Origin: Variovorax paradoxus B4
GTDB taxonomy: Bacteria > Pseudomonadota > Gammaproteobacteria > Burkholderiales > Burkholderiaceae_C
Direction: 5' to 3'
Assembly (NCBI RefSeq): GCF_000463015.1
Contig: NC_022234.1
Location: 496,001-560,000, forward strand
Length of the DNA: 64,000 nucleotides
The notes under the pieces were generated by a model. The model was not told the DNA's origin. It saw nothing but the letters and a program-made list of their open reading frames with translations, and searched no databases. A program made the position numbers and the translations under genes. This document shows, one piece after another, positions 43,148 to 60,624 of the stretch. Positions within the stretch are counted from its first letter, which is position 1, and each line of letters opens with the position of its first letter.

Positions 43148-43166
43148 ATTATCATTTCATTATCAT
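43148..43166. promoter_or_regulatory. Operator copy 1 of the 19-bp shared site
   Basis: ATTATCATTTCATTATCAT, preceded by TTGCA, matches the copy at 52384 at 17 of 19 positions. It lies in an AT-rich island between the minus-strand gene starting at 43071 and the plus-strand gene at 43531. It has Fur-box-like wording but not the exact Fur spacing. Confidence 0.65.
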
Positions 43167-43446
43167 AAAAAGCAAATGCAAGCGGCGCTTCCTGGCGGGC
43201 GGGTTGGGCGTGTCGCAGTCTGCGATCGAGGTCGTTTTCGGGCGCAAGAATGCCAACAGGCAACTGCGAATCAAGGCGCCGGCCAGGCTGCCGGCGTGCA
43301 TCGCGCTGCCCTTGGCGAGCGACGTCACATCCAGCGCCGCGCCATCACGCCGGTCTCGCTGACGGGTGTCAGGGAGCTTTGGTCGTCAGGCGACGTGCAG
43401 GCACAAAAGGGTCCGGGCCTTGGTTACGTGGCGGCCGCTGGCCTTG

Positions 43447-43460
43447 TTGATCCAAATCAA
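43447..43460. promoter_or_regulatory. Perfect FNR/ANR box
   Basis: TTGATCCAAATCAA fits the FNR consensus TTGAT-N4-ATCAA at every defined position. It is 71 nt before ATG 43531, a spacing that suits activation from about -41.5. It suggests anaerobic induction of the 43531 gene. The stretch 43167-43446 between the operator and this box holds no gene I can support. Confidence 0.7.
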
Positions 43461-43530
43461 GCGAAGGTCGCACGCAGCGCAGTACATGTTGTGCCGTCAA
43501 TGCCTATTCTGAACGGATACCCCGGAAGAC

Positions 43531-43920
43531 ATGAAACCGCTGCAGCGCATCGAAGAACCCAGCACCAATCCTTCACGCCTCGAGCTACTGATCGTCCATC
43601 GCCCCGAGGGAGCGGCATTTGTCCCGCCGCACATCGTGCATCTCTTTGCCGCTCTCGACTGCGTGCAGTTGGACAGATCCATCTATACCCTGCCTGCAGG
43701 CCCAGGGCGAGACGATGGGCTTCGCTGCCTCGCCAAGGATTTCGCTACGGTTGGCGGCTCCATCTGGTTGTTCGCGGAATTGGGTGACGCGGCCCAGGAT
43801 GATCAAACATATCGTCCCTTGCGGGATTGCAGCGAGCGATATGCCGAGGCAGTTGCGGCGTGGCGAGAAGGCCGTGGAGCCTTGCCCGGCCTGAAGCCCG
43901 GCGAACTTCTTCGGCTGTAG
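43531..43920 (+). CDS. Hypothetical protein with upstream FNR box
   Basis: The 129-residue soluble protein starts after GGAAG. The core reads LELLIVHRPEGAAFVPPHIV and HLFAALDCVQLDRSIYTLPA, then DDGLRCLAKDFATVGGSIWL and YAEAVAAWREGRGALPGLKP. No known family is recognised and there are no metal-binding Cys clusters. It is convergent with the small subunit of complex 1 (43962). The perfect FNR box upstream links it to low-oxygen conditions. Confidence 0.65.
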   Translation: MKPLQRIEEPSTNPSRLELLIVHRPEGAAFVPPHIVHLFAALDCVQLDRSIYTLPAGPGRDDGLRCLAKDFATVGGSIWLFAELGDAAQDDQTYRPLRDCSERYAEAVAAWREGRGALPGLKPGELLRL

Positions 43921-43961
43921 ACGCTTCGTCGGCATGGGAGCGACGAAGCGTCATGGCGGTC

Positions 43962-44483
43962 TCAGACGTCTGGCTGGCACCGTCTCACTGCACCGAGGAT
44001 CCCGCGCAGGATGTCGATCGGAGGCGGGGGGCAGCCGGGCACCACCGCGTCGACAGGAATCACATTCGCCACCCTGCCGCAGCTGGCATAGCTCTCGCCG
44101 AAGATGCCGCCGGTGCAGCCGCAATCGCCGACGGCAACCACCAGCCTGGGTTGCGGCGTGGCATCGTAAGTGCGCTTCAACGCCTCCTCCATATGGCGCG
44201 AGACCGGTCCGGTCACCAGCAGCATGTCGGCATGGCGCGGGCTGGCAACGAACTTGATGCCGAGCCCTTCGATGTTGTAGTAGGGGTTGTTGAGCGCATG
44301 GATCTCGAGCTCGCAGCCATTGCACGAGCCGGCATCGACGGCACGGATCGTCAGTGCCTGGCCAAGGATGGCGAGGATGTCGCGGTGGATGCGATCGACG
44401 GCGGCGTGTTCGGCATCGTCGGCCTGCGGCGCCGGCTCGGTGACGATGCCGGTGCGCACGATCTGCTTGAGGATGTGCCACAT
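43962..44483 (-). CDS. Complex 1 small Fe-S subunit (HyfI/NuoB-like)
   Basis: The 173-residue protein carries the proximal [4Fe-4S] ligand set of the complex I/hydrogenase small subunit: SCNGCELEIHALNNPYYNIE, VGDCGCTGG and VVPGCPPPPIDILRGIL. There is no attached ferredoxin domain, unlike the equivalent protein of complex 2. No HyfA/HyfH-like ferredoxin gene lies in this operon, so its electron donor is not encoded here. It overlaps the large-subunit gene by ATGA (44483) and ends the operon. Confidence 0.9.
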   Translation of the reverse strand: MWHILKQIVRTGIVTEPAPQADDAEHAAVDRIHRDILAILGQALTIRAVDAGSCNGCELEIHALNNPYYNIEGLGIKFVASPRHADMLLVTGPVSRHMEEALKRTYDATPQPRLVVAVGDCGCTGGIFGESYASCGRVANVIPVDAVVPGCPPPPIDILRGILGAVRRCQPDV

Positions 44484-46033
44484 CAGAGGTCGTGTCCCGA
44501 ATAGCTCAGGTTGAAGGACTTGTTGATCAGCGGAAAGTCCGGAACGATGTTGCCGATGATGGCGTGCTCCAGCACCGGCCAGTTCTGCCAGGATGGATCG
44601 TGGCAGTGGCATCGCACGATGCGGCCGTCGTCCGAGATTTCCAACGCAACGAACACCTCGCCGCGCCATCCTTCGACCCGGCCCGCACCCAGCGATGCCG
44701 AAGTCCGGTGCGCCACCTCGGCCCGGGCCGCGCCGCCCGGCAAGCCGGCGCAGATGGCACGGATGAGCCGCAACGACTCGAACGCCTCGTCGAACCGTAC
44801 CGCCACGCGCGCCGCGACGTCGCCGTCGTGCTGCGTCGCGATCTCGACCTTCAGCCCATCGTAGGGCGGCCGCGGGAAGTCGCAGCGCAGATCGGCCGCC
44901 TGCCCGCTCGCGCGTCCCGCCAGGCCCGTAAGGCCGAGTCGCGCGGCCAGCTCGGGCGTGACCTGTCCGGCCCCGGCAAATCGGTCCTGCAGACCCGCAT
45001 GCTCGTCGTATATGCGCCTCAACACGCGCACCTCCTGCTCGACCGCATCGCATTGCGCGCGCAGGCGATCCCGCATGGACGGCGTCGGATCGACCGCCAC
45101 GCCGCCAGGGATGACGGCGTCCATCATCAGGCGGTGGCCGAAGATCTGCCCGGACAGGCGCAACCAGTCTTCGCGCAGCCGGGAGAACTGCGCCAGGCCG
45201 AAGGCGAGCGCCGCGTCGTTGGCCAGCGCGCCAAGGTCGCCCAGGTGGTTGGCCACGCGTTCGCGCTCGAGCATCAGCGCACGCAGCCAGCTGGCGCGTT
45301 CCGGAATGTCGCAGCCCCAGGCCGACTCGAGCGCCATGCTGTAGGCCCAGGCGTAGGCCACCGTCGTGTCGCCGGAGATGCGGCCTGCAAGTCGGTGGCC
45401 CTCGAGCGGCGCCAGTTCCGTGAACCGGCGCTCCACGCCCTTGTGCGTGTACCCCAGGTGCTCCTCGAGCCTGAGCACTTTTTCGCCCACGACGGAAAAA
45501 CGAAAGTGGCCGGGCTCGATGATGCCGGCATGCACGGGTCCGACGGCGATCTCGTGCACCCCGTCGCCGTCGACGCGCACGAAAGGGTAGTCGGCGGGAA
45601 GCGCGCCCCGCGCGGCTCGCTCGAACCGGGCGGTTGATTGAAGGGGCGGCGGTCCGGGCGGCCATGCCCCGTGGTCGAGCCAGGGGCGATCGTCCTCCTG
45701 GCCTTCCGCGCGAATGCCCGACAGATCCGCGACGGCGCGTTGCATGCGTTGCGCACAGGGGAACAGGCCGGCCAGGTCGGGAAACCCCTGCGCAGCGTCT
45801 TCCAGGCGAAGTTCGAGCCAGACCAGCCCTTCGCGCACGGCATACGCGGCACACACCGCCGTCACGTCGCCGTGCGCGCGGCGATCGACGCCCCAGACCG
45901 AGACCAGGCGCCCGCCGGTGTCCGCGACGCGGCGCGCGGCGGTGCTCCAGGCGCTGCGCTGCACCCGTCCATGCCAGATGGGCATCGGCGAGGGCAGTCG
46001 CCGCAGATCGAGTCCGAGTTCCGGCGGCGCCAT
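44483..46033 (-). CDS. Complex 1 large subunit (HyfG/NuoCD-like) lacking NiFe ligands
   Basis: The 516-residue protein has an N-terminal NuoC-like part (about residues 20-110) fused to a NuoD/HycE-like domain (HEIAVGPVHAGIIEPGHFRF, HLGYTHKGVERRFTELAPLE, ALMLERERVANHLGDLGALA). Where hydrogenases have the first CxxC (RVCGIC), it reads GRISGDTTVAYAWAYSMALE (about 218-237). Its end, INKSFNLSYSGHDL, lacks the DPCxxC of the second pair. With no Ni ligands it cannot be a hydrogenase. It fits the energy-converting hydrogenase-related (Ehr) proteins. It lies 3 nt from the HyfF-like gene. Confidence 0.9.
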   Translation of the reverse strand: MAPPELGLDLRRLPSPMPIWHGRVQRSAWSTAARRVADTGGRLVSVWGVDRRAHGDVTAVCAAYAVREGLVWLELRLEDAAQGFPDLAGLFPCAQRMQRAVADLSGIRAEGQEDDRPWLDHGAWPPGPPPLQSTARFERAARGALPADYPFVRVDGDGVHEIAVGPVHAGIIEPGHFRFSVVGEKVLRLEEHLGYTHKGVERRFTELAPLEGHRLAGRISGDTTVAYAWAYSMALESAWGCDIPERASWLRALMLERERVANHLGDLGALANDAALAFGLAQFSRLREDWLRLSGQIFGHRLMMDAVIPGGVAVDPTPSMRDRLRAQCDAVEQEVRVLRRIYDEHAGLQDRFAGAGQVTPELAARLGLTGLAGRASGQAADLRCDFPRPPYDGLKVEIATQHDGDVAARVAVRFDEAFESLRLIRAICAGLPGGAARAEVAHRTSASLGAGRVEGWRGEVFVALEISDDGRIVRCHCHDPSWQNWPVLEHAIIGNIVPDFPLINKSFNLSYSGHDL

Positions 46034-46036
46034 CGG

Positions 46037-47491
46037 TCAGTTCCCCAGCATGGCCGCCGCCTGGACGTACCAGGCGTTCAGATAGGGCGGGATGTAGAGG
46101 CCGAGCATCAGGCCCAGCGCCAGATGCACGAACACCGGAACCAGGGCCGGAGGATGCGCCAGGGGCTTGACGTTGGTCTCCCCGAAGACCATGGGCTGGA
46201 TCCGGCTGAAGACGGACGCGAACGCCAATCCCAGGGCGACCAGCAGAAACGGGGTTGCCCAGGGCTGCTCGCGCATTGCGGTCGTGACGATCAGGAACTC
46301 GCTGGCGAAGACGCCGAACGGTGGCATGCCGAGGATGGCGAGCGATCCGAGCATCAGCCCCCAGGCAACCGTCGGGCTGACCTTGATGAGTCCGCGGATG
46401 TTTTCCATGACCTGGGTGCCGGCCTTCTGCGCCGCATGGCCGACGGCAAAGAAGATCGCCGACTTGATCAGCGAGTGCACCGTCATGTGCAGCAGCCCGG
46501 CGTAGTTGGCGATGGGGCCGCCCATGCCGAAGGCGAAGGTCATCATGCCCATGTGCTCGATCGACGAGTAGGCGAACATGCGCTTGACGTCCTTCTGCCG
46601 GATCAGGAAGAACACCGCCGCCACCACCGACAGCAGGCCGAACCCCATCATCAGCCGGCCGGCCAGGGGACTGCCCAGTGCGCCGTCGGTCAACACCTTG
46701 CAGCGCAGGATCGCATAGAGCGCGACGTTCAGCAGCAGGCCCGACAGCACCGCCGACACCGGTGTCGGACCCTCGGCATGCGCATCGGGCAGCCAGTTGT
46801 GGACCGGCACCAGGCCGACCTTGGTCCCGTATCCGATGAACAGGAACGCGAACGCCAGCGTGATGATGTTCGGATCGAGCTGCCCCTTCACCGCATCGAG
46901 GTTGGTCCAGAGCAGGGCGCCGCCTTCGGGGCCGATCACCTTTTCGGCCGCCATGTAGAGCAGCACCGTTCCGAACAATGCCTGGGCGATGCCCACGCCG
47001 CACAGGATGAAGTATTTCCACGCGGCCTCGAGGCTGGCCGCGGTGCGATAGACGCTGACCAGCAGCACGGTGGTCAATGTCGCGGCCTCCATGGCCACCC
47101 AGATGATGCCCATGTTGTTGGTCGTCAACGCGAGCAGCATCGTGAAGCTGAACAGCTGGTACATGCTGTGGTAGAGCCGCATGCGTGGCGGGGTCATCTT
47201 TCCATGGTCGCGCTCCACCCGCATGTAGGGGCGCGAGAAGATGGCGGTGGTCAGGCCGACGAACGCGGTCAGGGCGACGAGAAAGACATTCAGCGCATCG
47301 ATGTAGAACTCGCGATCCCACACCAGCGTCGGCCCGCTCTCGACGATCTGCGCCGTGAGCGCGCAGGCGGAAATGAAGGTACCCAGGCTGAAGGCGACAT
47401 TGACGTCGCGTGCGTTGTCGCGGTGGCCGACCAGCGCCAGCACCAACCCGCCGGCCAGCGGGGTTGCGAGGAGGAAGGCCAATGCAAGCAT
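46037..47491 (-). CDS. Complex 1 membrane subunit F (HyfF/NuoN-like antiporter)
   Basis: The 484-residue protein is a Mrp/NuoL-M-N-type proton-translocating subunit with about 14 helices. Characteristic segments are GIIWVAMEAATLTTVLLVSV (helix with Glu), KVGLVPVHNWLPDAHAEGPT, KRMFAYSSIEHMGMMTFAFG, VGHAAQKAGTQVMENIRGLI and GMPPFGVFASEFLIV. It is a little shorter than E. coli HyfF (about 526). It lies between the E-like subunit (start codon adjacent to that stop at 47492) and the large subunit. Confidence 0.92.
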   Translation of the reverse strand: MLALAFLLATPLAGGLVLALVGHRDNARDVNVAFSLGTFISACALTAQIVESGPTLVWDREFYIDALNVFLVALTAFVGLTTAIFSRPYMRVERDHGKMTPPRMRLYHSMYQLFSFTMLLALTTNNMGIIWVAMEAATLTTVLLVSVYRTAASLEAAWKYFILCGVGIAQALFGTVLLYMAAEKVIGPEGGALLWTNLDAVKGQLDPNIITLAFAFLFIGYGTKVGLVPVHNWLPDAHAEGPTPVSAVLSGLLLNVALYAILRCKVLTDGALGSPLAGRLMMGFGLLSVVAAVFFLIRQKDVKRMFAYSSIEHMGMMTFAFGMGGPIANYAGLLHMTVHSLIKSAIFFAVGHAAQKAGTQVMENIRGLIKVSPTVAWGLMLGSLAILGMPPFGVFASEFLIVTTAMREQPWATPFLLVALGLAFASVFSRIQPMVFGETNVKPLAHPPALVPVFVHLALGLMLGLYIPPYLNAWYVQAAAMLGN

Positions 47492-48154
47492 CTAGTCTTC
47501 CTTGAGCTTTTCCAGGTGGCGGATGTCCAGGCTGTCGAATTGCTCGCGGATCTGGAACATGAAGACGCCCAGGATCAGCACGCCGATCAGCACATCCAGC
47601 GCGATGCCGAACTCGACCACCATCGGCATGCCGTAGGTGGCCGACGTCGCGGCGAAGAACAGGCCGTTCTCCATCGCGAGAAAGCCGATCACCTGCGGAA
47701 TCGCCTTGGCGCGCGTGATCATCATCAGGAACGACAGCAGCACGCAGGCCAGCGCGATGCCCAGCGTGCCGCTGGCGAGCGCCGATGACAGTCGGGAGAT
47801 GGGAATGGCCAGATTGAAGGCGAAGATCACCACCGCGATGCCGATGAGCATCGTCGTCGGGATCTTGATCAGTGTCTCGACGTCCGAGCGGATGCCGAGC
47901 CGTCGGACGACCCGGTGCAGCAGGTACGGGATCAACAGCACCTTGAGCACCAGGGTCAGTCCGCCCGACAGGTACAGGTGGTGCTGGTGGGTCGCGTAGC
48001 CGACGACGACGGTGGCGAGCGCCAGCGTGGCGCCCTGCATCGTGAACAGGTGAATCAGCGTGAGGATGCGCCGCTGTGAGAGCATCGCAAAAGCGAGCAT
48101 CAGCAGCACTGCGCCGAGCAGGTTGACGAACTGGGTCAGGATGCCATTGTTCAT
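47492..48154 (-). CDS. Complex 1 membrane subunit E (HyfE-like)
   Basis: The 220-residue protein, almost the length of E. coli HyfE (216), has about seven helices. Its second half carries the NuoK-like part: GIALACVLLSFLMMITRAKA, IPQVIGFLAMENGLFFAATS and TYGMPMVVEFGIALDVLIGV. The Glu in AMEN corresponds to the membrane Glu of NuoK needed for proton transfer. The gene abuts the HyfF-like gene without a gap and ends 1 nt before the start of the C-like gene's stop region (48156). Confidence 0.92.
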   Translation of the reverse strand: MNNGILTQFVNLLGAVLLMLAFAMLSQRRILTLIHLFTMQGATLALATVVVGYATHQHHLYLSGGLTLVLKVLLIPYLLHRVVRRLGIRSDVETLIKIPTTMLIGIAVVIFAFNLAIPISRLSSALASGTLGIALACVLLSFLMMITRAKAIPQVIGFLAMENGLFFAATSATYGMPMVVEFGIALDVLIGVLILGVFMFQIREQFDSLDIRHLEKLKED

Positions 48155-48155
48155 G

Positions 48156-49103
48156 TCAGCGGTTGAGCAGCAGGTGCACGAGCATGCCGATCACCGCCAG
48201 CAGGAAGGCGGTGGCGAGGAATTCGGGGACGCGGAAGATGCGCATCTTGGCGCTCGCCGTTTCCAGAACGGCCAGCAGAAAGCCGCCAACGGCGAGTTTG
48301 CCCATCAGCGCGGGCAGGGCCAGCAGCATCTCCAGGGGGGCCTGGGCTTCGGCCACGCCCCATGGAAAAAACAGGGCCAAGCCGATACACGAGTACGCGA
48401 ACAGCTTCAGGCTGGACGCCCATTCGACCAGCGCCAGATGCCGGCCCGAGTACTCGAGAATGAGCGCCTCGTGGATCATGGTCAGCTCGAGGTGCGTGGC
48501 CGGGTTGTCCACCGGCACGCGAGCGTTCTCGGCGAGCGAGACCATCGTGAATGCAACCCCGGTGAAGGCCAGCCCGGGATAGATGGCCAGTTCCCGACGC
48601 GCCAGCGTCTCGACAATGGTCGTGAGGGACGTGGACTGGGAGATCAGCGAGGCCGAGAACAGCACCATCAGCAGCGCGGGTTCGGCAAGAAACCCGACCA
48701 GCATTTCGCGGCGCGCTCCCATGGTGCCGAACGCGGTGCCGATGTCCATGGCGGCCAGCGAGATGAACACCCGCGCCAGGGCGAACAGGCCGACCAGCGC
48801 GATCGCATCGGCCGCCGGCGCCAGCGGCAAGTCGGTCGACAGCGTCGGGATGATGGCGCAGGCCAGCACCATGCAGCCGAACATCACGTAGGGTGCGATG
48901 CGGAACAAGCGCGATGCGTGCTCGGCAATCACCGATTCCTTGTGAAACAGCTTGTGCAGCATGCGGTAGGGCTGCCAGAGGCTGGGTGCAGACTTGTTCT
49001 GGAGCCACGCGCGCCACAGGTTGATCCAGCCGGTCAACAGGGGCGCCAGCGCGATCGCGATGACGATCTCCAGCACTTGCGACATGACGCCGGTGAGACT
49101 CAT
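48156..49103 (-). CDS. Complex 1 membrane subunit C (HyfC/NuoH-like)
   Basis: The 315-residue protein matches HyfC in length and motifs: SAPSLWQPYRMLHKLFHKES, SLAAMDIGTAFGTMGARREM, LVGFLAEPALLMVLFSASLI and ENARVPVDNPATHLELTMIH, EALILEYSGRHLALVEW. This is the Q-module-contacting membrane subunit that links the hydrophilic arm to the antiporter subunits. The conserved acidic residues (AEPA, ENARVPVDNP, HLELTMIHEA) are retained, which argues the complex is still functional for ion coupling. Confidence 0.93.
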   Translation of the reverse strand: MSLTGVMSQVLEIVIAIALAPLLTGWINLWRAWLQNKSAPSLWQPYRMLHKLFHKESVIAEHASRLFRIAPYVMFGCMVLACAIIPTLSTDLPLAPAADAIALVGLFALARVFISLAAMDIGTAFGTMGARREMLVGFLAEPALLMVLFSASLISQSTSLTTIVETLARRELAIYPGLAFTGVAFTMVSLAENARVPVDNPATHLELTMIHEALILEYSGRHLALVEWASSLKLFAYSCIGLALFFPWGVAEAQAPLEMLLALPALMGKLAVGGFLLAVLETASAKMRIFRVPEFLATAFLLAVIGMLVHLLLNR

Positions 49104-49110
49104 GGCAGGC

Positions 49111-51135
49111 TCACCGCATGACCACGAGCAGCGTGGCCACGAGTGTCAGGAAGCTGTACAGCAGGTACACCGAGATGCGCCCCTGCTGCATCAGGCCGAC
49201 CAGCCGCGCGAGATACGCGGCCAGGTCGGCGATGGGCACATAGAGCCAGCGCCAGAAGCGGTCTTCCACCGTCACACGGTAGCGCGGCTTCGCATCGAAG
49301 GGGGTGGGCAGGTCGCGCCGCATCAGGAAGAACGGCTCGAAGATCTGGCGGATGGGCTGGCCGAAGCCCTCGGCGGTGTCCTGCATGCGTGCCGTGCCCC
49401 ACGCAAAGCCGCAAGCCCAGGGCGGGCTGCGCCGCATGCGTCCGTGGTACAGGCCGCGCACCAGCAGATAGGCGAGTGCAAAACTCCCGAGGATGCCGAG
49501 CAGCAGGATCACGGGCCCATAGCTGGCCTGCTCGAGGCTGTTCGGCGCCAACAGCCAGCGGTTGGCTGCCGGCTCGCCGCCCAGACCCGATGCGACGAGT
49601 TGCCGCGTCACCGGATCGATCAGCCGGATGAACTGCGTCGGCAGCAGCCCGAGCGCAACGCAGCCCAGCGCCAGCCAGGCCATGCCCACGCGCTCCCAGT
49701 GGCCGGCATCGTTGGCATGGGCGAGTTTCTCCTCGCGCGGCTGGCCGAGGAAGATCACGCCGAAGAACTTGACCATCGTGTAGCCGGCCAGGGCGGCCAC
49801 CAGCACGATGAGCGCGGCAACCACCGGGATGAGCATGGTCAGGAGCGGCACCGGCAGTCCCGGCGTGAAGAGGAAGCTCTGCAGCAGCAGCCATTCCGAG
49901 ACGAACCCGCCCAGCGGCGGCAGGCCTGCGCTGCTCAGCACGCCCAGCAGCGTGAGCCAGGCGACCCAGGGCATGGTCCGGATCAGTCCACCCAGCTTGC
50001 CCAGGTTTCTCTCGGAAGTGGCATGAAGCACGCTGCCGGCGCCAAGAAAGAGCAGGCTCTTGAAGAACGCGTGGCTTGCGACGTGATAGAGGGTCGCCGT
50101 CAACGCGAGTGCGGCCATCGGCTTCATGCCATAGGCTGAGAATATCAATGCCAGTCCCATGCCGGCGAACAGCAAGCCCATGTTCTCGATCGACGAATAG
50201 GCCAGCAGTCGCTTCATGTCGACCTGTACCGCCGCGAAGATCACGCCGAACAGCGCCGTCGCCAGGCCGATCGCCAGCAGCAGGCCGCCCCACCACCACA
50301 TGGGGGTGTTCAGCAGGTCCAGGGACACGCGCAGCAGGCCGTAGATGGCCGTGTTGAGCATGACCCCGCTCATCATGGCCGAGACGGGGGAGGGCGCCGC
50401 GGGGTGGGCTTCGGGCAGCCAGACATGCAGCGGCAGGATGCCGGCCTTGGCGCCGAACCCGAACACCGCAAGCAGGAAGCCGGCCGAGGCCCACAACGGG
50501 GGCAACGCCTGGGCGCGCATGTTGGCGAATGTGTAGTCGCCCGTATCGGCCTGCAGCACGCCGAAGCACAGCAGGACCGCAATGGCGCCGATTCTCGCCA
50601 TCGTGATGTAGAGATAGCCGGCGCTGCGCACCTCGGCCAGGCGGTGGTTCGCGGTCACCAGGAAGAACGACGACAGCGCCATCGTCTCCCACATCACCAT
50701 GAACGAATACGCGTCGTCGGCGAGGATCACGCCCACCATGCTGACCAGGAAGACGTGGTACTCCAGGCACAGCAGGCCGGGCGGCGTGCCTTCGCCTTTG
50801 CGGAAGTAGCCGGCTGCAAATGTGGAGATGCCTGCGGCCGAGCCTCCGACCACCATCAGGAAGTAGGCCGACAGGCTGTCCAGGCGAAGATGGAACGGCA
50901 ATGCGGGCAACCCGATGGGCAGCACGGCGACCTCGGGCGTGTCGAGCAATGCGCCCAGGGCCAGGCCGAAGAGTGCCAGCCCGAGCAGCGCGCCGGCAGG
51001 AAAGAACAGCCGGGACACCAGTGCCAATCGATGCAACGCCATGACGCCGGCGATGCCGATCAGAAGCCAGCCCAGCGCAACGACGAGTACCCAATCCAGC
51101 CAGAGCCAATGCGCGGGAGAGGGCAGGCTGGTCAT
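49111..51135 (-). CDS. Complex 1 membrane subunit B (HyfB/NuoL-like antiporter)
   Basis: The 674-residue protein is the large Mrp-type antiporter subunit, equal in length to HyfB (about 672). Motifs: YSFMVMWETMALSSFFLVTA (helix with Glu), GILPLHVWLPEAHPAAPSPV, KRLLAYSSIENMGLLFAGMG, HAFFKSLLFLGAGSVLHATS, GLPPLGGFVSEWLLLQS and the C-terminal PWACGFAWGTARMQDTAEGF segment usual in HyfB. It starts the complex-1 genes. The SpeE-like gene ends 173 nt upstream with a hairpin between, so read-through from the operator at 52384 is possible. Confidence 0.93.
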   Translation of the reverse strand: MTSLPSPAHWLWLDWVLVVALGWLLIGIAGVMALHRLALVSRLFFPAGALLGLALFGLALGALLDTPEVAVLPIGLPALPFHLRLDSLSAYFLMVVGGSAAGISTFAAGYFRKGEGTPPGLLCLEYHVFLVSMVGVILADDAYSFMVMWETMALSSFFLVTANHRLAEVRSAGYLYITMARIGAIAVLLCFGVLQADTGDYTFANMRAQALPPLWASAGFLLAVFGFGAKAGILPLHVWLPEAHPAAPSPVSAMMSGVMLNTAIYGLLRVSLDLLNTPMWWWGGLLLAIGLATALFGVIFAAVQVDMKRLLAYSSIENMGLLFAGMGLALIFSAYGMKPMAALALTATLYHVASHAFFKSLLFLGAGSVLHATSERNLGKLGGLIRTMPWVAWLTLLGVLSSAGLPPLGGFVSEWLLLQSFLFTPGLPVPLLTMLIPVVAALIVLVAALAGYTMVKFFGVIFLGQPREEKLAHANDAGHWERVGMAWLALGCVALGLLPTQFIRLIDPVTRQLVASGLGGEPAANRWLLAPNSLEQASYGPVILLLGILGSFALAYLLVRGLYHGRMRRSPPWACGFAWGTARMQDTAEGFGQPIRQIFEPFFLMRRDLPTPFDAKPRYRVTVEDRFWRWLYVPIADLAAYLARLVGLMQQGRISVYLLYSFLTLVATLLVVMR

Positions 51136-51274
51136 GGCTGGGCACTCTGGAGGTCAGCGCGCCACGAGAGGATGCCTTTCACCGACCGTGAGGTTCGGCG
51201 AACAGGGCCTGCGTACAACTTCGAGTTCCATGGATCCTCAGCATTGCGTTGAAATCCAAAGGGTATCTTCAGCA

Positions 51275-51294
51275 CATGGTATATGAATACCATG
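51275..51294. promoter_or_regulatory. Perfect 8-4-8 palindrome between SpeE-like and complex-1 genes
   Basis: CATGGTAT-atga-ATACCATG lies 15 nt after the SpeE-like stop (51309) and 139 nt before the HyfB-like start. It has no T-run, so an intrinsic terminator is unlikely. It could be an operator or an RNA hairpin setting the ratio of the two products. Confidence 0.5.
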
Positions 51295-51308
51295 CGATCC
51301 AGGAAGGA

Positions 51309-52239: not shown

Positions 52240-52383
52240 CGTTCAGTGCCGTCATCCGGTGGTGCGCGAGAACGCCCTCGCGTACGACGTCCGTGGACAC
52301 GATGTTCCTGAGCAGGGAAACGCCACATGCTCCAAGTTCTGTGCGATAGAAATCGAATGTAATGCGTCTGATGTTTCATTGCA

Positions 52384-53158: not shown

Positions 53159-53908
53159 TCAACTGCTGATGCCAAGCAGATCGAGCACGCCGCAGACGAA
53201 GGTGAGCGGATGCGGCGGACACCCGGGCACATAGAGCGCCGGCTTGAATCGCTGCAGGAAACTCCGGTCCAGCGTGGACGCGCCTTCGAACGGGCTCCCC
53301 GAGATCGCGCAGGCGCCGACCGCAATCACGAGCTTGGGGTCAGGCATGCCGTCCCAGCACAGTTCCAATGCCGCGGCCATGTTGCGGGTGATCGGTCCCG
53401 TCAGCACCAGGCCGTCCGCATGCCGCGGAGATGCCACGATGTCGATGCCATAACGCGCGATGTCGAAGTTGACGTTGGTGAGTGCATTGACCTCGAGCTC
53501 GCAGCCGTTGCAGCCACCGGCCGAGACGGATCTCAGCTTGAGGGAGCGGCCAAAGCGCTTGCGCAGCGCGTCGGACACCTTCACGGGATCGGGCATCGGT
53601 CGCGACGCGCTCAAGGTCAACCCCTCTCGATCGGTCGCGGCCAGCTTGAAGTCGTTCGTGAACGAGAGCTTTCCGCTGGGGCATGCGGGAACGCAGTCGC
53701 CGCACATCACGCAGCGCCCCAGGTCGATCTGCACCGGGTCGAGCGCGATCGCCCCGGTCGGGCATGCGGCCGCGCAGGCGTCGCAGCCCGTGTCGCAAGC
53801 GGCATTGCCGATGTCGGGCTTGCCGCGGAATCCGACTGGATTCGCCTGCCGGGGATCCTTGATGTACTGAGTCCCTTGCGAGATTCTCACGCTGATCGAC
53901 TTGAGCAC
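53159..53908 (-). CDS. Complex 2 Fe-S subunit: ferredoxin domain fused to NuoB-like domain
   Basis: The 249-residue protein joins two subunits normally encoded separately. Residues about 35-85 hold two [4Fe-4S] motifs (CDTGCDACAAACP and CVMCGDCVPACP), like NuoI/HyfH. Residues 125-249 are NuoB/HyfI-like with SAGGCNGCELEVNALTNVNF, IAVGACAISGSPFEG and YVPGCPPHPLTFVCGVLDLL. This gives a wired path from an external donor to the proximal cluster in one chain. It is the last gene of the complex-2 operon, 8 nt after the large subunit. Confidence 0.9.
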   Translation of the reverse strand: MLKSISVRISQGTQYIKDPRQANPVGFRGKPDIGNAACDTGCDACAAACPTGAIALDPVQIDLGRCVMCGDCVPACPSGKLSFTNDFKLAATDREGLTLSASRPMPDPVKVSDALRKRFGRSLKLRSVSAGGCNGCELEVNALTNVNFDIARYGIDIVASPRHADGLVLTGPITRNMAAALELCWDGMPDPKLVIAVGACAISGSPFEGASTLDRSFLQRFKPALYVPGCPPHPLTFVCGVLDLLGISS

Positions 53909-53916
53909 CGATGTTC

Positions 53917-55389
53917 CTAGAGATCGTTCCCGCAGTAGGAAAGATCAAAACTCTTGTTGCAGATGGGAAAGTCCGAGATCTCGTTGCCGCGCAGGGCGAA
54001 TGCAAGGCCGAACCAGTTCAGCAGCGATGGATCCTGAACCTTGTAGTGGATCAAGCGCCCGTCGGGACCCGTCTCCAACGACTGGACCACGGGGCCTCGG
54101 AATCCTTCGCGCACCGAGACACAGAGCGTGTCGGGCGAAAGCGGCCCGGGCAACGCGGGCGCGACGCTTGCCAGGTCGAGTTCCGGCGTTTCGAGTACGC
54201 GGGTCAGCCAGCGGACCGATTCGTCGATCTCGCGCATGCGCAACTTCAGGCGCGCCCAGCAGTCGCCCGTTTCTTCCGTCAGGAGCGTGATCGGATCGCG
54301 GGTGTACAGCCGCCCAGGCAGGCTGACGCGCATGTCGACCGCCATGCCGCTGGCGCGCCCCGCCAGTCCCACGAGTCCGAGGTCCCGTGCCGCCTCGCTG
54401 CCGACAACACCCACCCCCCGGAAACGTGACCGGACGCTGCGTGCGTCGAGCATCAGATCGTTGACTTCGGCGAAGTCTTTCGCGAAGGCCGCGATGGTGG
54501 CGAGCAGGTCCTGCCGCTGTTCTTCGGAAATTCCGTATCGCACGCCGCCGGGGCGCAGCCACCCGCGGCCGAAGCGGCTGCCGCAGATCCGCATGCATGC
54601 ATTGATGATCGCCGTGCGCAGGCGCCCATAGGTGGCCCCGCCCTGCAGGAATGCAATGTCGGTCGCCAGCCCCGTGAGGCTGGCCAGGTGCATGGCCACG
54701 CGCTCCAGTTCCAGTGCAACGCCACGCACCAGATCGGTCTCGATGCGGATCCGGGTGCCGGACAACGCCTCCACGGCGGCACAGTAGCCCCAGGCGTACG
54801 CGATGCTGCTGTCGCCGGCGATGGACTCGACCAGCGAGGCGAGTGCAAGCGGCGGGCGGCGCAAGAGCAACGCCTCGACGCCGCGGTGCTGGTAGCCGAG
54901 CTGGATCTCCAGGTGGTGCACCTGCTCGCCATGGCACATGAACCGGAAATGACCCGGCTCGATCACGCTGGCATGAATCGGCCCGACCCCCACTTCGTGA
55001 ATCTCCTGGCCGCGTACCTTGAAGAACGGGTAGTCGGTCATGTGCTGCTGGTGCTCGCCCTCGTAGCGCACCGGCTTGAGCCAGGGATGCCCGGCAGGGA
55101 TCAGCCCGGTCTGCTCCCACAGCTCCCGTTCGAACATCTGCGCGGCGGGATGCCGGGGCGTGAGCGACGGGAACGATTCATGGCGCCGCCCGCGTCCGCG
55201 CAGGATGCGCAGGCCCCCCTCACCGCCCATCACAACGGCCGTGACCACGGTGTCGCCGCCCGCATCGGGACGCCCGAAAAGCGTGATCAGCCGATCGCCG
55301 GCATCGAGCGCCTGCGCGCACCGGTCCACCCACGTCGCCAGATCGTCGGTCACGATCTCGCGGGTCTGCATCATGGCCAATGGTTCCAT
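53917..55389 (-). CDS. Complex 2 large subunit (HyfG/NuoCD-like) lacking NiFe ligands
   Basis: ATG 55389 (MEPLAMMQTREIVTDDLATW) overlaps the stop of the HyfF-like gene (ATGA). The 490-residue protein has a short NuoC-like part and a NuoD/HycE-like domain (HEVGVGPIHASVIEPGHFRF, QLGYQHRGVEALLLRRPPLA, ALELERVAMHLASLTGLATD). The first hydrogenase CxxC is replaced by VESIAGDSSIAYAWGYCAAV and the C-terminus reads ICNKSFDLSYCGNDL, with a single Cys in place of DPCxxC. It is clearly different from, though homologous to, the complex-1 large subunit, and likewise is not a NiFe hydrogenase. Confidence 0.9.
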   Translation of the reverse strand: MEPLAMMQTREIVTDDLATWVDRCAQALDAGDRLITLFGRPDAGGDTVVTAVVMGGEGGLRILRGRGRRHESFPSLTPRHPAAQMFERELWEQTGLIPAGHPWLKPVRYEGEHQQHMTDYPFFKVRGQEIHEVGVGPIHASVIEPGHFRFMCHGEQVHHLEIQLGYQHRGVEALLLRRPPLALASLVESIAGDSSIAYAWGYCAAVEALSGTRIRIETDLVRGVALELERVAMHLASLTGLATDIAFLQGGATYGRLRTAIINACMRICGSRFGRGWLRPGGVRYGISEEQRQDLLATIAAFAKDFAEVNDLMLDARSVRSRFRGVGVVGSEAARDLGLVGLAGRASGMAVDMRVSLPGRLYTRDPITLLTEETGDCWARLKLRMREIDESVRWLTRVLETPELDLASVAPALPGPLSPDTLCVSVREGFRGPVVQSLETGPDGRLIHYKVQDPSLLNWFGLAFALRGNEISDFPICNKSFDLSYCGNDL

Positions 55390-56870
55390 CACTGCCCGCC
55401 GATCGATTGCGCCACCTGGCGCAGGAGCTGGCTGATGGGCGCCGGGGTGTAGACGCCCAGCATGACCAGGGCCACGACGAACCCGAGCTTGGGTGCCGCG
55501 GTCACCCAGCTCCCGTCGGCCGGCGGAACCTGCCGGTCGGAGGGGCCCCACAGCATCGGGAAGATCGAGCGTCCCGTCGCGACAAAGATGATGGTCAGCA
55601 TCGTGCACATCACGGTGAACGCGATCAGGTTGCCCGACTGCACGATGCCTGACAGGATCAGCATTTCCGCCATGAAGCCGCCGAACGGGGGAAACCCCAG
55701 CAGTGCGAATGTGCCCACGGCGAACAGCATTCCAGAGAATGGCAGCACCCGGATCACACCGCTCAGTGCCTTGATTTCATTGGTGCCATAGACCGCGCGC
55801 AGCCGTCCCGCGGTGAGGAACAGCAGGGCTTTCACGAAGGCGTTGCTGACGATGTAGAGCAGAACCCCGTACGCGGCAGCCCGCCCCACCGACAGGCCGA
55901 TGGCGATCACGCCGGAAGAACTCACGCAGGCATAGGCAATCAGCCGCTTGTAGCTGCGCGCGGCCATCACCTGGATCGCAGCGACGGCCAGCGACAGGCA
56001 GCCCATGATCAGCAGCTGGTAGGCCACGAAGCCCGTGTCCCTGGCCTGGAACACCTGGAGAATTCGAAAGACGGCGACCACGCTGATGTTGAATTGCACG
56101 GCCGCGAGCAGCGCGCTCGTGCTGGTCGGCGCAGCCTCGTAGGTCTCCGGCATCCAGCTGTACAGCGGCGCGAGGCCGAGTTTGCTGCCCAGGCCGAACA
56201 GCATCAGCCCGAGCCCGAGGTGCCGCCAGGAATCGCCCACGGGCGGCACGGCGGCCGCCATCTGGTCGAGCGCGAAATGGATCTCCACCCCTTGCAGGTA
56301 GGCCGAGCGCGTGAGGCACATGATGCCCAGGAAAGTCAGCGCCAGCGACATGCTGGAGTACAGCAGGTAGCGCCAGGCGACCCGGTGCGGCGCCTTCGCG
56401 CTGCCTTGCGCGACCAGGGGGGCCGCGCACAGCGCGGTCAGTTCGATGAACGCCCACAACAACAGCAGGTTGTTGGCCATCACGCCGAAATTCATGGCCA
56501 CCATGAAGGCCAGCGTGAGGGAGGCCCGGGACGGCATGTGCCTGGCCAGCGCAACCGATGTGTGGACCCGGGAGGCCATGTAGACGCTGATGCCCAGGAA
56601 CACGATGTTGATCAGCAGCAGGAACAGCAGCGAGGTGGCATCGAGAACGAAATAGCGCTGCGCGAAGTAGAGCGGAAGCTGCGCCAGCGGCGTGCGTATG
56701 AAGACGGTGACCCACAGCCCCAGGATGGCCAGCGCCGCAGCGACCAGCGCCGGGCCGATCCACGGATGGCGTGTCTGCGGGAGCCGGCTGCCGGAACCGG
56801 CGGGCTCCACGGACCCGGGAGCACCCGGGGCGGCCGCGCCGGATTCGAGGGCGACGAGCCGGGTATTCAT
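55389..56870 (-). CDS. Complex 2 membrane subunit F (HyfF/NuoN-like antiporter)
   Basis: The 493-residue protein has Mrp/NuoN-type motifs: NNLLLLWAFIELTALCAAPL, SKLGLAPLYSWMPETYEAAP, KRLIAYACVSSSGVIAIGLS, SNAFVKALLFLTAGRLRAVY and LGFPPFGGFMAEMLILSGIV. An extra Pro/Gly-rich N-terminal tail of about 35 residues precedes the first helix. Start and stop overlap both neighbours by a few bases, which shows a tightly coupled operon. Confidence 0.92.
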   Translation of the reverse strand: MNTRLVALESGAAAPGAPGSVEPAGSGSRLPQTRHPWIGPALVAAALAILGLWVTVFIRTPLAQLPLYFAQRYFVLDATSLLFLLLINIVFLGISVYMASRVHTSVALARHMPSRASLTLAFMVAMNFGVMANNLLLLWAFIELTALCAAPLVAQGSAKAPHRVAWRYLLYSSMSLALTFLGIMCLTRSAYLQGVEIHFALDQMAAAVPPVGDSWRHLGLGLMLFGLGSKLGLAPLYSWMPETYEAAPTSTSALLAAVQFNISVVAVFRILQVFQARDTGFVAYQLLIMGCLSLAVAAIQVMAARSYKRLIAYACVSSSGVIAIGLSVGRAAAYGVLLYIVSNAFVKALLFLTAGRLRAVYGTNEIKALSGVIRVLPFSGMLFAVGTFALLGFPPFGGFMAEMLILSGIVQSGNLIAFTVMCTMLTIIFVATGRSIFPMLWGPSDRQVPPADGSWVTAAPKLGFVVALVMLGVYTPAPISQLLRQVAQSIGGQ

Positions 56871-57481
56871 GTGCGCTCCTCCGCGGCATGCAGCGGATCA
56901 TCCGCCTCGCCCGGCTCCCGCACGCCGACCAGCCAGCTGCCGACACCGGCCGTGAGCAGGTAGATGGCGCTCAGCGTTGCATGAACAGGCCATGGCCAAG
57001 GCTCGGGAAGCAGCGACTCGAACAGCGCCAGCGCGTTCTCCATGAAGAGGACGGCCACCAGCTGCGCGGGCGGCGAGTTGTTGGTGGCAAGCACCAGCAA
57101 GGCCACGGCCACGGTGGCGCCGACGACGCCGAGCGTGAAAGCCTGCCGATCGGACATGGCCGGTGCACCGAACTCGAATGCCAGCACGATGAGCGCGACG
57201 GCAGTGGCCCAGGTGAAAAGGTTCGACGGCATCAGGTCCATGTTCGGTTCGATGCGCAGACGGATGGCGCGGCGCAGCAGCAGCGGGGCGACGGCGCCGC
57301 GCACCACAAGAACCTCCAGCAGTGCCACGAGGACGTGGGGTGAGAGCTGTGCCTGCTGCGAGGTGCCGCTCCAGCCCAGAGCCAGTGCCTGCACGGCAAG
57401 CCAGACCGGGATGGACTGAATCTTGCTGAAGAAGACCGGGACGACCGTGGCGGCCAGAAAGATAACCAGTGGCAGTGTCAT
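56867..57481 (-). CDS. Complex 2 membrane subunit E (HyfE/NuoK-like)
   Basis: ATG 57481 (MTLPLVIFLAATVVPVFFSK) overlaps the C-like gene's stop by ATGA. The 204-residue protein has about six helices. It carries a NuoK-like segment, VVGATVAVALLVLATNNSPP, AQLVAVLFMENALALFESLL, with the conserved membrane Glu in MEN. The longer open frame to 58315 is the C-like gene read out of phase. It is shorter and more diverged than the complex-1 counterpart. Confidence 0.88.
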   Translation of the reverse strand: MTLPLVIFLAATVVPVFFSKIQSIPVWLAVQALALGWSGTSQQAQLSPHVLVALLEVLVVRGAVAPLLLRRAIRLRIEPNMDLMPSNLFTWATAVALIVLAFEFGAPAMSDRQAFTLGVVGATVAVALLVLATNNSPPAQLVAVLFMENALALFESLLPEPWPWPVHATLSAIYLLTAGVGSWLVGVREPGEADDPLHAAEERT

Positions 57482-58404
57482 CAGGGCCTCGTCAGCCAGC
57501 CGGCGCCGGCCAGGCACAGGGCCGCGAGAGCCGATGCCAGCATCAGGTATCGCGGCACCAGCCGCATGCGCAGCCGTGCGACCAGCGACTCGGTGCACCC
57601 GACCACCACGGCAACACCGGCCATGGCGCATGCCGAGAAGAGAACGCAGGCCAGCGGTGCGGCCAGGGGGTCGAAGGGATTGAGCAGGGCTGCCACCAGG
57701 CCGGCATAGATGGTCATCTTCAGGGCCGCGGCGTATTGCATCGCCGCCAGTTCCGGGCCACTGTGGTCGAGGATCATCACCTCGTGAATCATGGTCAGTT
57801 CGAGGTGTGTCGACGGATCGTCCACGGGCACCCGCGAAGCCTCGGCCTGCAGCAGGATGAACAGGACCACGATCAGCGCTGGCGCCAGCCAGCGGAACGA
57901 TTCGGCCTGGTGCAAATGGCCGATGAGGCCGGCGAAGCTGGCGTGGCCGGTGACGACACCGGCAGTGCCGACGAGCAGGAACAGCGCGGGTTCGACGAAG
58001 GCGGTGAACGATGCCTCGCGGGCCGCACCCATTGCCTCGAAGGCACTGCCGACGTCCATGGCCGACAGCATGAGAAAGATGCGCGCGAGCGCGAGCGTGT
58101 AAGCAAAGAAGACGAAGTCGTGGTTGAACTCCAGTGGTGCGAATCGGCCGAGATTCGGCGCGATCATCGCGGCGAGCATGGATGCGGCCAGGACCACCCA
58201 GGCGCCCGTGCGAAACAGCGGCGTGGCCACGCCGCTGAGCACCGGTCGCTTCCTCATGAGGCGCAGCAGGTCCCAACCCAACTGCATCAGCGGCGGACCC
58301 TTGCGCCCCGCCCACATCGCCTTGGTCCGGTTCACGAGGCCGACCATCAGCACCGGCATGCCGAGCGCCAGCAGCACATGCGCGAATCCCGCTGGAAGCG
58401 TCAT
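57481..58404 (-). CDS. Complex 2 membrane subunit C (HyfC/NuoH-like)
   Basis: The 307-residue protein has the HyfC pattern: GPPLMQLGWDLLRLMRKRPV, LSAMDVGSAFEAMGAAREAS, FTAFVEPALFLLVGTAGVVT and EASRVPVDDPSTHLELTMIH, EVMILDHSGPELAAMQYAAA. The conserved acidic positions of the Q-chamber/E-channel region are kept. Its start overlaps the stop of the HyfB-like gene (58401-58404). Confidence 0.93.
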   Translation of the reverse strand: MTLPAGFAHVLLALGMPVLMVGLVNRTKAMWAGRKGPPLMQLGWDLLRLMRKRPVLSGVATPLFRTGAWVVLAASMLAAMIAPNLGRFAPLEFNHDFVFFAYTLALARIFLMLSAMDVGSAFEAMGAAREASFTAFVEPALFLLVGTAGVVTGHASFAGLIGHLHQAESFRWLAPALIVVLFILLQAEASRVPVDDPSTHLELTMIHEVMILDHSGPELAAMQYAAALKMTIYAGLVAALLNPFDPLAAPLACVLFSACAMAGVAVVVGCTESLVARLRMRLVPRYLMLASALAALCLAGAGWLTRP

Positions 58405-60404
58405 CGCAGCGGCCCGCTCACCAGCATCAGCACGCCTGCGATCACGACGATGCCGATCAAGGCCGCGGCGAAGGCAACGCGCGGATCATCTTCATGCAAC
58501 CGCTTGGAGAGATCGCTCGCCGAGGCATCGCCGTGGCCGATCACCGAGAAGAGGCGCCGTTCCACCGCGTCCACGCAATCGGTGATCAGGTAGCTTTCGG
58601 CCGGGAAATAGCCCGTGGGCAGCTTCTGCCGCCGCAGCATCACCATCACGCCGCGAAATCGCGCACTGAAATCCGAGGAGAAGCTGGACCCGGTGTACTG
58701 CATGCGCGAGTTCGGCGCACCGTAGCCGCATCCCCAGGTGACATGGCTCGAAGCGGTGGGGGATGCCACTCTGGAGCGCAGCCAGATGAGCACCTCGATC
58801 AGCAGCACGAGCCCTCCGGAAACCATGCCGATCCAGGTCAGCGTGGTGGCGATGGGTTGCAGCACATCGCCTGCGGGGCCGGGCAGGGTTCTCAGTGCGA
58901 TGCTGGCGGGGCCCTGTACCAGCTTGAAGCCCAGCACCGGAATCACGCCCAGCGCGACAACGCCGATTCCGTGCACGCCCATGGGGGCCAGCATCCAGCG
59001 GCTCACCTCGGTCGGCCGCGCCACGCTGCGGTCTCGCGGTGTGCCGAGAAAGACCACGCCGAAGGCGCGCGTGATGCTCAACGCGGACACGGCACCCACA
59101 AAGGCCAGCAATGCGCCCGTGGCGCAGAACGCCACCTTCGCCCAGACGCCGATCGGCGCACTGGTGAACAAGCCCGAATAGATGACGAACTCGCTGGTGA
59201 AGCCGTTGAGCGGCGGCATCGCCGCAATCGCGACGCCGCCGAGGATGAAGCTCAGCGACGTCCATGGCATCAAGCGGGACAGCCCGCCCAGCTTCTCCAT
59301 GTCGACGGTGTGCGTGGCCTGGTAGACCGCGCCGGCCGCGTAGAACAGCTGGCACTTGAAGAACGCGTGGTTCAGCACGTGCAGCAATCCCCCCGCGAAT
59401 CCGATGGCGACCAAGGAGGCGTTGCCCCAGCTCAACCCCAGGCAGCCGACGCCGAAGCCGATGCCGGCAATGCCGACGTTCTCGGTCGAGGAGTAGCCCA
59501 GCAGGCGTTTCAGGTCGCGCTGGCCGACCGTGTACAGGGCACCGATCAGCGCGGACAGCGCGGAGAAGCCGATCAGGAACCAGCCCATCCACTCGTCGGG
59601 CTTGCCGATCAGGAAGACGAAGCGCACCAGTGCGTAGAGTCCGGCCTTGTGGATGACACCCGACATCAGCGCGGAGACATGCGCAGGCGCCGCGGCATGG
59701 GCACGCGGCAACCAGGAATGAAAAGGGAAGAACGCCGACTTCAGGCCGAAGCTCGCGATCAGCAGGAGGAAGACCAGGTTGCGCTCCGCGCCGGCATTGT
59801 TTCGCAGCCATTGCCCGAAGCTGCCGAGATCCCAGGAACCCGAATGGGTGTAGAGGATCATGAAGGCGGCGACCAGGAAGATCAGGCCGATGTGCGTCGA
59901 CACCAGGTAGTTGAAGCCGGCGAAGCGGACCTTCTGGTTCGTGTAGTCCCAGATGACGAGAAGCCAGGCCGCCAGCGCCGCGGTCTCCCAGCCCAGCAGG
60001 AAAATCAGCGCATGGTCCGCGGTATAGACCAGAACGAACGACAGGGAGGTCAGGTTCAGCAGCGCATAGTGCAATCCCACGTGCCGCGTCGACTTGAAGT
60101 AGGGCCTGAGGTAGCCCACGGCGTAGATGCCGCCCAGCATGGTCATCGGAAGCGACCAGACGAGAAAGAACGCACCGAGCGCATCCAGCCGCACCTTGAG
60201 CGTGCCCACCGGATAGGCCCATGCCAATTCGCCGACAACCGGCGCACCTCCGGCCAGGATGGGGATCGCCGCCGCCCAGACCAGCGCCACGGCCATCAGC
60301 TGCGAAAGGATTCCAACACCGGCATGCACGGCATTGCGCATGGGCAGCAGGCAAACAGCAGCGCCCAGCAGCAAGACGAAGACGGCGGCATTGAGAGCCG
60401 TCAT
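58401..60404 (-). CDS. Complex 2 membrane subunit B (HyfB/NuoL-like antiporter)
   Basis: The 667-residue antiporter-like subunit has HALIFLLGWETAALAAWLLV, KSAFFPFHSWLPRAHAAAPA, KRLLGYSSTENVGIAGIGFG, HAFFKCQLFYAAGAVYQATH and AMPPLNGFTSEFVIYSGLF. The HyfB-type C-terminal segment TWGCGYGAPNSRMQYTGSSF is also present. It is the first gene of the complex-2 operon, so the promoter should lie in 60405-60646, which contains the GGCCCG palindrome and operator copy 3. Confidence 0.93.
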   Translation of the reverse strand: MTALNAAVFVLLLGAAVCLLPMRNAVHAGVGILSQLMAVALVWAAAIPILAGGAPVVGELAWAYPVGTLKVRLDALGAFFLVWSLPMTMLGGIYAVGYLRPYFKSTRHVGLHYALLNLTSLSFVLVYTADHALIFLLGWETAALAAWLLVIWDYTNQKVRFAGFNYLVSTHIGLIFLVAAFMILYTHSGSWDLGSFGQWLRNNAGAERNLVFLLLIASFGLKSAFFPFHSWLPRAHAAAPAHVSALMSGVIHKAGLYALVRFVFLIGKPDEWMGWFLIGFSALSALIGALYTVGQRDLKRLLGYSSTENVGIAGIGFGVGCLGLSWGNASLVAIGFAGGLLHVLNHAFFKCQLFYAAGAVYQATHTVDMEKLGGLSRLMPWTSLSFILGGVAIAAMPPLNGFTSEFVIYSGLFTSAPIGVWAKVAFCATGALLAFVGAVSALSITRAFGVVFLGTPRDRSVARPTEVSRWMLAPMGVHGIGVVALGVIPVLGFKLVQGPASIALRTLPGPAGDVLQPIATTLTWIGMVSGGLVLLIEVLIWLRSRVASPTASSHVTWGCGYGAPNSRMQYTGSSFSSDFSARFRGVMVMLRRQKLPTGYFPAESYLITDCVDAVERRLFSVIGHGDASASDLSKRLHEDDPRVAFAAALIGIVVIAGVLMLVSGPLR

Positions 60405-60482
60405 GGGTGTCCCCGGACTGTGGGCGCCGAAAGGTACGACGCCGTCCTGCTGCCTCGAAGGTGCCCAGCCGAGCGCTTCAGC

Positions 60483-60500
60483 GGCCCGAATTTACGGGCC
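60483..60500. promoter_or_regulatory. GGCCCG-N6-CGGGCC palindrome upstream of complex 2
   Basis: A perfect 6-bp inverted repeat about 80-96 nt before the HyfB-like start. It could be a second operator, or a small hairpin in the 5' leader of the operon. Confidence 0.35.
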
Positions 60501-60605
60501 ACGTGCGCCATGCATGAATCGACGAAACAATGCAAATGAAGAGCTCCAGGATCTCGGCCAAGCAGGCGCTCAGAATGCCCGCAGGTTGCAATTCGATTGC
60601 ACTGG

Positions 60606-60624
60606 ATGATACTATCATTATCAT
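60606..60624. promoter_or_regulatory. Operator copy 3 of the 19-bp shared site
   Basis: ATGATACTATCATTATCAT differs from copy 2 at two of 19 positions. It lies 22 nt before the start of the ribbon-helix-helix gene and overlaps its likely -10 region, and it faces the complex-2 operon on the other side. GCA again precedes it, five bases further away. Confidence 0.7.

Follow-up and report, generated by a model that had tools for sequence, protein, structure and literature searches.

Membrane complexes of the Ehr kind combine subunits like those of complex I with a large subunit that lacks the nickel-binding cysteine (Cys) motifs, and in the two reports that define them their function is termed unknown or merely suspected (PMC10284858, PMC6349859). 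For the hyfBCEFGI genes of Cupriavidus metallidurans CH34 (Rmet_4666-4671), a role in lithotrophic growth is called very unlikely, and the accessible part of the text names no regulator (PMC2864759). We analyzed a 64,000-nucleotide stretch of Variovorax paradoxus B4 (NC_022234.1, positions 496,001 to 560,000; GCF_000463015.1), referred to below as the window. It encodes two six-gene complexes, both with complex-I-like subunits and without the nickel ligands, as in the Ehr definition (PMC10284858, PMC6349859); this likeness is one of gene content and motifs and holds for the Ehr kind rather than for an exact group. Complex 1 (in unit 2, with a SpeE-like gene) equals the CH34 set in its six-gene content (PMC2864759), complex 2 constitutes unit 3, and a further SpeE-like gene belongs to unit 1. 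Three copies of a short element accompany these units and are probably the operators of a dedicated ribbon-helix-helix (RHH) protein of the RHH_9 family, which, judging from the sequence comparisons below, would repress its own gene together with units 1, 2, and 3 until some signal lifts the repression. CH34 also has RHH_9 relatives, and sites beside its complex-1 homologue. The central features are as follows.

43148..43166, no strand: operator copy 1, two boxes ATTATCAT-N3-ATTATCAT
52384..52402, no strand: operator copy 2, ATGATAAT-N3-ATTATCAT
60606..60635, no strand: operator copy 3, boxes at 60606 (5/6 matches), 60617 (6/6), and 60628 (5/6)
60647..60844, plus strand: RHH_9 protein of 65 amino acids, the proposed regulator; its start codon (ATG) lies 11 bp past the third box of copy 3

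The preliminary description of this DNA had placed three related 19-mers at 43148, 52384, and 60606, with copies 1 and 3 each matching copy 2 at 17 of 19 bases, and this was confirmed; 100 shuffled windows contained no 19-mer match at up to three mismatches. When copy 2 was searched at the same tolerance across the whole genome (7,148,516 bases, two contigs), only the three window places were found, with no match for the reversed control pattern, and the element is thus not widely distributed at unrelated genes. The symmetric pattern ATKNNMATNNNATKNNMAT matches copies 1 and 2 plus one further place on contig 2, copy 3 departing from it by one mismatch. A profile derived from 34 operator sites in other organisms, excluding those of the window, also ranked the three copies 1 to 3 in the 7.15 Mb (21.4, 20.0, and 15.0 bits; E values of 0.002, 0.006, and 0.26); the fourth row was copy 2 on the opposite strand, and the next separate place scored 11.7 bits (E = 3.15). 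Within a 28-kb piece of the window, the three copies were the sole sites above 16.5 bits with the matrix derived de novo from other genomes.

That matrix was obtained by motif discovery in the 200 bp upstream of RHH genes, excluding the window, and returned ATKNNMAT-N3-ATTAACAT (log-likelihood of 357 with 120 starts, versus 134 to 155 in five shuffled sets with 60 starts each). The operator unit is an 8-bp palindromic box, ATKNNMAT, repeated every 11 bp and at times present in more than two copies, and not the Fur box with wrong spacing whose wording the preliminary description had thought to recognize. That the box is itself near-palindromic explains both copy 1, in which ATTATCAT is repeated perfectly in direct orientation, and copy 2, a perfect 8-3-8 inverted repeat. 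Copy 1 is flanked by additional in-phase boxes with 5/6 matches at 43126-43133 and 43170-43177 (the position at 43137 reaches merely 3/6), and the core of copy 3 is followed by its third in-phase box, at 60628-60635. A site of at least 18 bits was present in 87 of 117 distinct RHH upstream regions, the operator lying a median of 14 nucleotides (nt) before the RHH start codon. Among the 87 regions with a site, boxes with at least 5/6 matches occurred at offsets of -33, -22, -11, 0, +11, and +22 in fractions of 0.16, 0.26, 0.36, 1.00, 0.99, and 0.27, the offsets 0 and +11 being the site itself; at +33 there were none (0/28). The remaining offsets were mostly near zero, and the exceptions (+6, +5, and -6, at 0.31, 0.24, and 0.23, and, lower, +17, -17, -28, and -5, at 0.12, 0.11, 0.11, and 0.10) are taken to be overlaps of box words.

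RHH relatives were present in 50 of the 299 genomes of the family, two of them (G184 and G220) with weak matches of 33 to 35% identity. A site above 16.5 bits was found somewhere, not always before the RHH gene, in 33 of the 36 loci L037-L072, which overlap the motif training set. For a held-out test we used 79 named loci from a separate collection (best 80 matches listed), 69 of which share no 30-mer with the training upstream regions, although close relatives of training sequences may persist among them. In 52 of these 69, the 200 bp upstream of the RHH gene contained a site above 18 bits, compared with 4 of 405 further 200-bp windows taken from these loci at fixed distances and 97 of 1,380 dinucleotide shuffles; the operator thus recurs upstream of the RHH genes of related genomes. 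A strict pattern, ATKNNMATNNNATTANCAT, was found in 15 of 40 RHH-positive versus 1 of 40 RHH-negative genomes (Fisher P = 1.2e-4), its reversed control in none of the 80, and in the 14 RHH-positive genomes besides that of the window all matches lay no more than about 0.9 kb from an RHH gene. A looser pattern search found 4 of the 299 genomes, two of them (G112 and G245) without a detected RHH gene.

The complex-1 operons offer a comparison from the other side. Their antiporter gene (E ≤ 1e-100) was present in 32 of the 299 genomes and coincided with the RHH gene in 21, the RHH gene thus occurring in 21/32 genomes with the antiporter versus 29/267 without it (P = 2.9e-11, uncorrected for kinship). 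For 7 of the 11 complex-1 genomes that are free of the RHH gene, 11 to 12 kb was fetched and contained no site above 16.5 bits; one RHH-free locus, L179, has a 15.5-bit match away from its complex. In G007 and G214, where the RHH gene is unlinked, complex 1 is likewise without a site above 16.5 bits. The complex-1 operons examined in genomes without the RHH gene, or with an unlinked one, thus have no site above this score, which indicates that the presence of the operator depends on the RHH gene and not on the complex.

Of the named relatives, the closest is plasmid 3 of Variovorax sp. PBL-E5 (NZ_LR594673.1), on which the genes of the window recur. Exactly three sites above 15 bits were found in 34 kb of it, one per corresponding unit: in the interval between the RHH gene and complex 2, before an operon of p260-like, SpeE, RHH, and complex-1 genes, and before the p260/SpeE unit. 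Although their bases differ from those of the window, they preserve the box pattern and still have TTGCAA or TTGC close by. The direction of unit 1 relative to complex 1 is opposite in the two replicons, and despite this the operator stands upstream of unit 1 in both, hence it goes with that unit.

Beyond the genes of the window, 118 RHH loci (some genomes represented twice) were scanned against a query set of the window's proteins and a few from relatives. Of the 128 site clusters of at least 18 bits, none fell inside a mapped gene, 117 lay at most 400 bp upstream of one, and 11 were unassigned. Targets were the RHH gene (97 clusters), the HyfB/NuoL-type gene of complex 1 (27), YoaK (23), SulP (19), complex 2 (9), p260 (7), SpeE-like genes (7), and a universal-stress gene (1), one cluster often serving two genes. 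The operator hence also precedes YoaK and SulP transporter genes in relatives (present in 28 and 39 of the 118 loci, respectively), and the regulon varies. For examples of each family, Pfam confirmed the assignment to YoaK (DUF1275) or SulP (Sulfate_transp plus STAS); in two SulP examples the NCBIfam DauA and BicA models remained below their cutoffs, the general sulP model passing in one. A SulP permease gene stands near the RHH gene in L119, L124, L136, L140, L141, L144, L147, L153, L162, and L169, loci of Pusillimonas type, Thiobacillus, and others (Pfam was run on L124, L136, L147, L153, and L162 only), and the operator is often at its own promoter. In two of these loci, a conserved protein of ~381 residues (L136:8201-9346, L141:8269-9417) separates the RHH gene from a second SulP-like gene; its L136 copy gave no Pfam match.

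The protein proposed as the regulator matches the RHH_9 profile (PF19839) at 77.8 bits (cutoff, 23.4) and RHH_1 at 23.5 bits (cutoff, 20.5). Its monomer model (mean predicted local distance difference test score [pLDDT] of 81, predicted template modeling score [pTM] of 0.58) has two helices in RHH order and no assigned strands. Comparison with the PDB gave nothing at E ≤ 0.001 (best, 0.35), the weak matches including many RHH proteins such as CopG and Arc. When PDB sequences were searched with the RHH profile, the first 28 rows were TALE repeats matched through a 14-residue piece, an artifact of repetition that was set aside; ParG and a ParD-type antitoxin were among the weak matches. No toxin family was found in the scanned window open reading frames (ORFs) beside the RHH gene, where small ORFs were partly scanned, and no toxin name occurs among the annotated genes directly flanking the RHH gene in two plasmids. 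Invariant residues in 117 distinct relatives, all close ones owing to the search threshold, include R7, T9, L11, Cys24, and Arg36; R and T at such strand positions presumably read DNA as they do in CopG, and Cys24 could be a sensor or else a core residue. At least 7,998 related proteins were scored in a large database.

Taken together, the uniqueness of the three copies, their conservation, and their co-occurrence with the RHH gene support the preliminary description's proposals of one regulon of three promoters and of the RHH protein as its likeliest regulator, the operator tracking the RHH gene across the genomes examined. In the mechanism that we envisage, one RHH dimer would read each ATKNNMAT box, dimers would stack side by side along boxes at the 11-bp period, and the operators would occlude the promoters; that the boxes end 11 bp before the RHH start codon fits autorepression, and self-limiting repression is favored. 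The sites, their geometry, and their distribution are seen in the sequences; binding by RHH_9, its cooperativity, the direction of control, and the signal are what we infer.

Candidate promoters were read at two of the operators.

43120..43148, minus strand: inferred unit 1 promoter, -35 TTGCAA (43148-43143), 17-bp spacer, -10 TATATT (43125-43120)
52356..52384, minus strand: inferred unit 2 promoter, -35 TTGCAA (52384-52379), 17-bp spacer, -10 TACATT (52361-52356)

At both units the operator abuts the -35 hexamer, which at unit 1 shares one base with operator copy 1. TTGCA had been noted before beside two of the copies; this holds for copies 1 and 2, at both of which we read it as the leftward -35 TTGCAA, and copy 3 has a TTGCA as well, four bases off. 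A promoter scan at copy 1 lists the unit 1 promoter, a second leftward match (43160-43132, 10/12), and one rightward promoter-like match. The same layout of operator, TTGCAA, and a TANATT-like hexamer 17 bp on recurs in many p260 and YoaK promoters, and it is common to the promoters of window units 1 and 2 and their two PBL-E5 counterparts. Among distinct promoters, the -35 TTG stands at one fixed offset from the operator in 0.75 of 8 of p260 type and 0.44 of 18 of YoaK, with TA...T 17 bp past the TTG in 0.62 and 0.44, respectively, other offsets averaging 0.03 and 0.02.

Several observations weigh against a repressed RHH_9 regulon. Eleven of the 32 genomes with complex 1 have no RHH gene, and in one of them (L175) a 15.6-bit match lies some 0.1 kb ahead of complex 1. 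A strict site occurs in G064 (L183, about 7158), where no RHH gene was detected and none of the window's genes was found in the 13 kb fetched around it. In the held-out test, 17 of the 69 RHH genes had no site above 18 bits in 200 bp, the shuffle background was 7%, and the control windows were mostly coding DNA. Copy 3 taken singly is weak in the genome-wide profile search, with its E value of 0.26, and in the window by itself loose box pairs are not commoner at 11 bp (11 pairs) than at 10 bp (10) or 15 bp (13). A standard consensus promoter scan gave no promoter at copy 2 or at copy 3, and for complex 2 none was found at copy 3. Finally, the spacing between operator and -35 is fixed at units 1 and 2, which would fit an activator as well.

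This last point belongs to the strongest of the alternatives, that RHH_9, bound at all three operators, acts as an activator of units 1 and 2 from beside the -35 hexamer and represses its own gene only. The fixed offset in p260-type and YoaK promoters speaks for it, as do the imperfect matches of the -35 and -10 hexamers to the consensus and the precedent of AmrZ, an RHH protein described as activator as well as repressor (PMC3325190). Against it, 0.16 to 0.36 of the loci, a minority, have in-phase boxes past the core, which suits occlusion, and the layout is rare in the SpeE2 group (0.25 and 0.12 of 8) and was not seen in the groups cx1, cx2, SulP, and RHH; we consider activation unlikely. 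A Fur-family metalloregulator, the other candidate of the preliminary description, is highly improbable: the boxes and Fur boxes have the words GATAAT/ATTATC in common, but none of the three copies matches the 7-1-7 palindrome TGATAATNATTATCA at up to three mismatches, although the genome contains matches elsewhere at one or two. Genome-wide there are just three prominent sites, and the operator follows the RHH gene; box geometry and the number of sites were the grounds for rejecting Fur. Equally hard to credit is a duplicated AT-rich promoter element that is no regulator site, since, for all that the box words hold -10-like hexamers and all three places are promoter regions, the same motif recurs in 11-bp steps in many genera, mostly with an RHH gene, sites above 16.5 bits are missing at the seven RHH-free complex-1 operons that were fetched, and the PBL-E5 copies vary in their bases while retaining the box pattern; the 11-bp steps and the dependence on the RHH gene led to its rejection.

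The units that RHH_9 would control are composed as follows.

39930..42790, minus strand: unit 1, with p260 (42008-42790), a SpeE-like gene (41156-41935), and a DctP-type binding protein (39930-41240)
43962..52151, minus strand: unit 2, with a SpeE-like protein (51309-52151) and the six genes of complex 1
51136..51308, minus strand: gap between the SpeE-like gene and complex 1, with leader and first codons as in RHH genes
49111-51135, minus strand: complex 1, HyfB/NuoL-like
48156-49103, minus strand: complex 1, NuoH-like (HyfC type)
47492-48154, minus strand: complex 1, HyfE-like, named from position and relatives, without Pfam match
46037-47491, minus strand: complex 1, HyfF-like antiporter
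44483-46033, minus strand: complex 1, fused 30/49-kDa subunit (HyfG type)
43962-44480, minus strand: complex 1, NuoB-like (HyfI type)
53159..60404, minus strand: unit 3, complex 2
58401-60404, minus strand: complex 2, NuoL-like
57481-58404, minus strand: complex 2, NuoH-like
about 56867-57505, minus strand: complex 2, HyfE-like
55389-56870, minus strand: complex 2, antiporter
frame 53917-55608, minus strand: complex 2, fused 30/49-kDa subunit
53159-53908, minus strand: complex 2, ferredoxin/NuoB-like

The large subunits of [NiFe] hydrogenases bear a nickel-binding motif of Cys pairs. These pairs are absent from both large subunits here, the motif places reading RISGDTT/DPSWQNW and SIAGDSS/DPSLLNW, and we therefore class the two complexes as hydrogenase-like, of the Ehr kind, rather than as hydrogenases. 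In unit 1, p260 is a conserved 260-residue protein, and the DctP-type gene is assumed to be on the same transcript as the rest. The divergent intergenic setting attributed earlier to all three copies applies to copies 2 and 3; copy 1 has unit 1 on one side and the 3′ end of the complex-1 operon on the other, and to its right the sole match found is a fragment of a DUF167 protein (43186-43311, plus strand) like a protein of the Variovorax sp. PBL-E5 plasmid. Beside copy 1, a short ORF (42787-43071), without Pfam match, resembles the N-terminal part of relatives' genes matching YoaK (DUF1275). Seen from unit 2, a GST gene lies beyond operator copy 2. Upstream of the second SpeE-like gene, 52108-52321 contains pieces like the C-terminal part of the PBL-E5 p260-like protein, and the first gene of unit 2 seems, from its sequence, to be truncated. 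The gap at 51136-51308 keeps an RHH-type leader, GAGGATCC-ATGGAACTC, without an RHH body, at a place where PBL-E5 has a second RHH relative.

Searches of an open-license library found no published description of such a regulon. With more reserve than for the regulon itself, since we rate it as possible rather than likely, we suggest that RHH_9 might be a sensing regulator, possibly via Cys24, of a widespread modular regulon for ion transport and energy conversion in Burkholderiales and neighbors, with one conserved operator for the Ehr, SulP, YoaK, and SpeE-like genes of different genomes. If so, orphan Ehr complexes would gain their first physiological context, shared with the transport of anions (e.g., bicarbonate or C4-dicarboxylates), and the target set (SulP, YoaK, SpeE-like proteins, and two Ehr complexes) would point to partners possibly working under the same condition. 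A defined candidate regulator and operator would make Ehr function open to direct test via one small gene.

Among known systems, the RHH_9 regulon would belong with those of the RHH autoregulators. Like MetJ, Arc, and CopG, it would involve a small RHH protein whose dimers sit in a row on short subsites and which targets its own gene, and the spacing of about one helical turn is that of Arc subsites; RHH_9 differs from these repressors in its box sequence and target genes. The MetJ operator consists of 8-bp boxes head to tail with an 8-bp period, whereas the period here is 11 bp. AmrZ of Pseudomonas aeruginosa is likewise an RHH protein binding its own promoter and several targets, although it has 108 amino acids and controls virulence genes, while RHH_9 has about 65 and stands beside genes for membrane complexes and transporters (PMC3325190).

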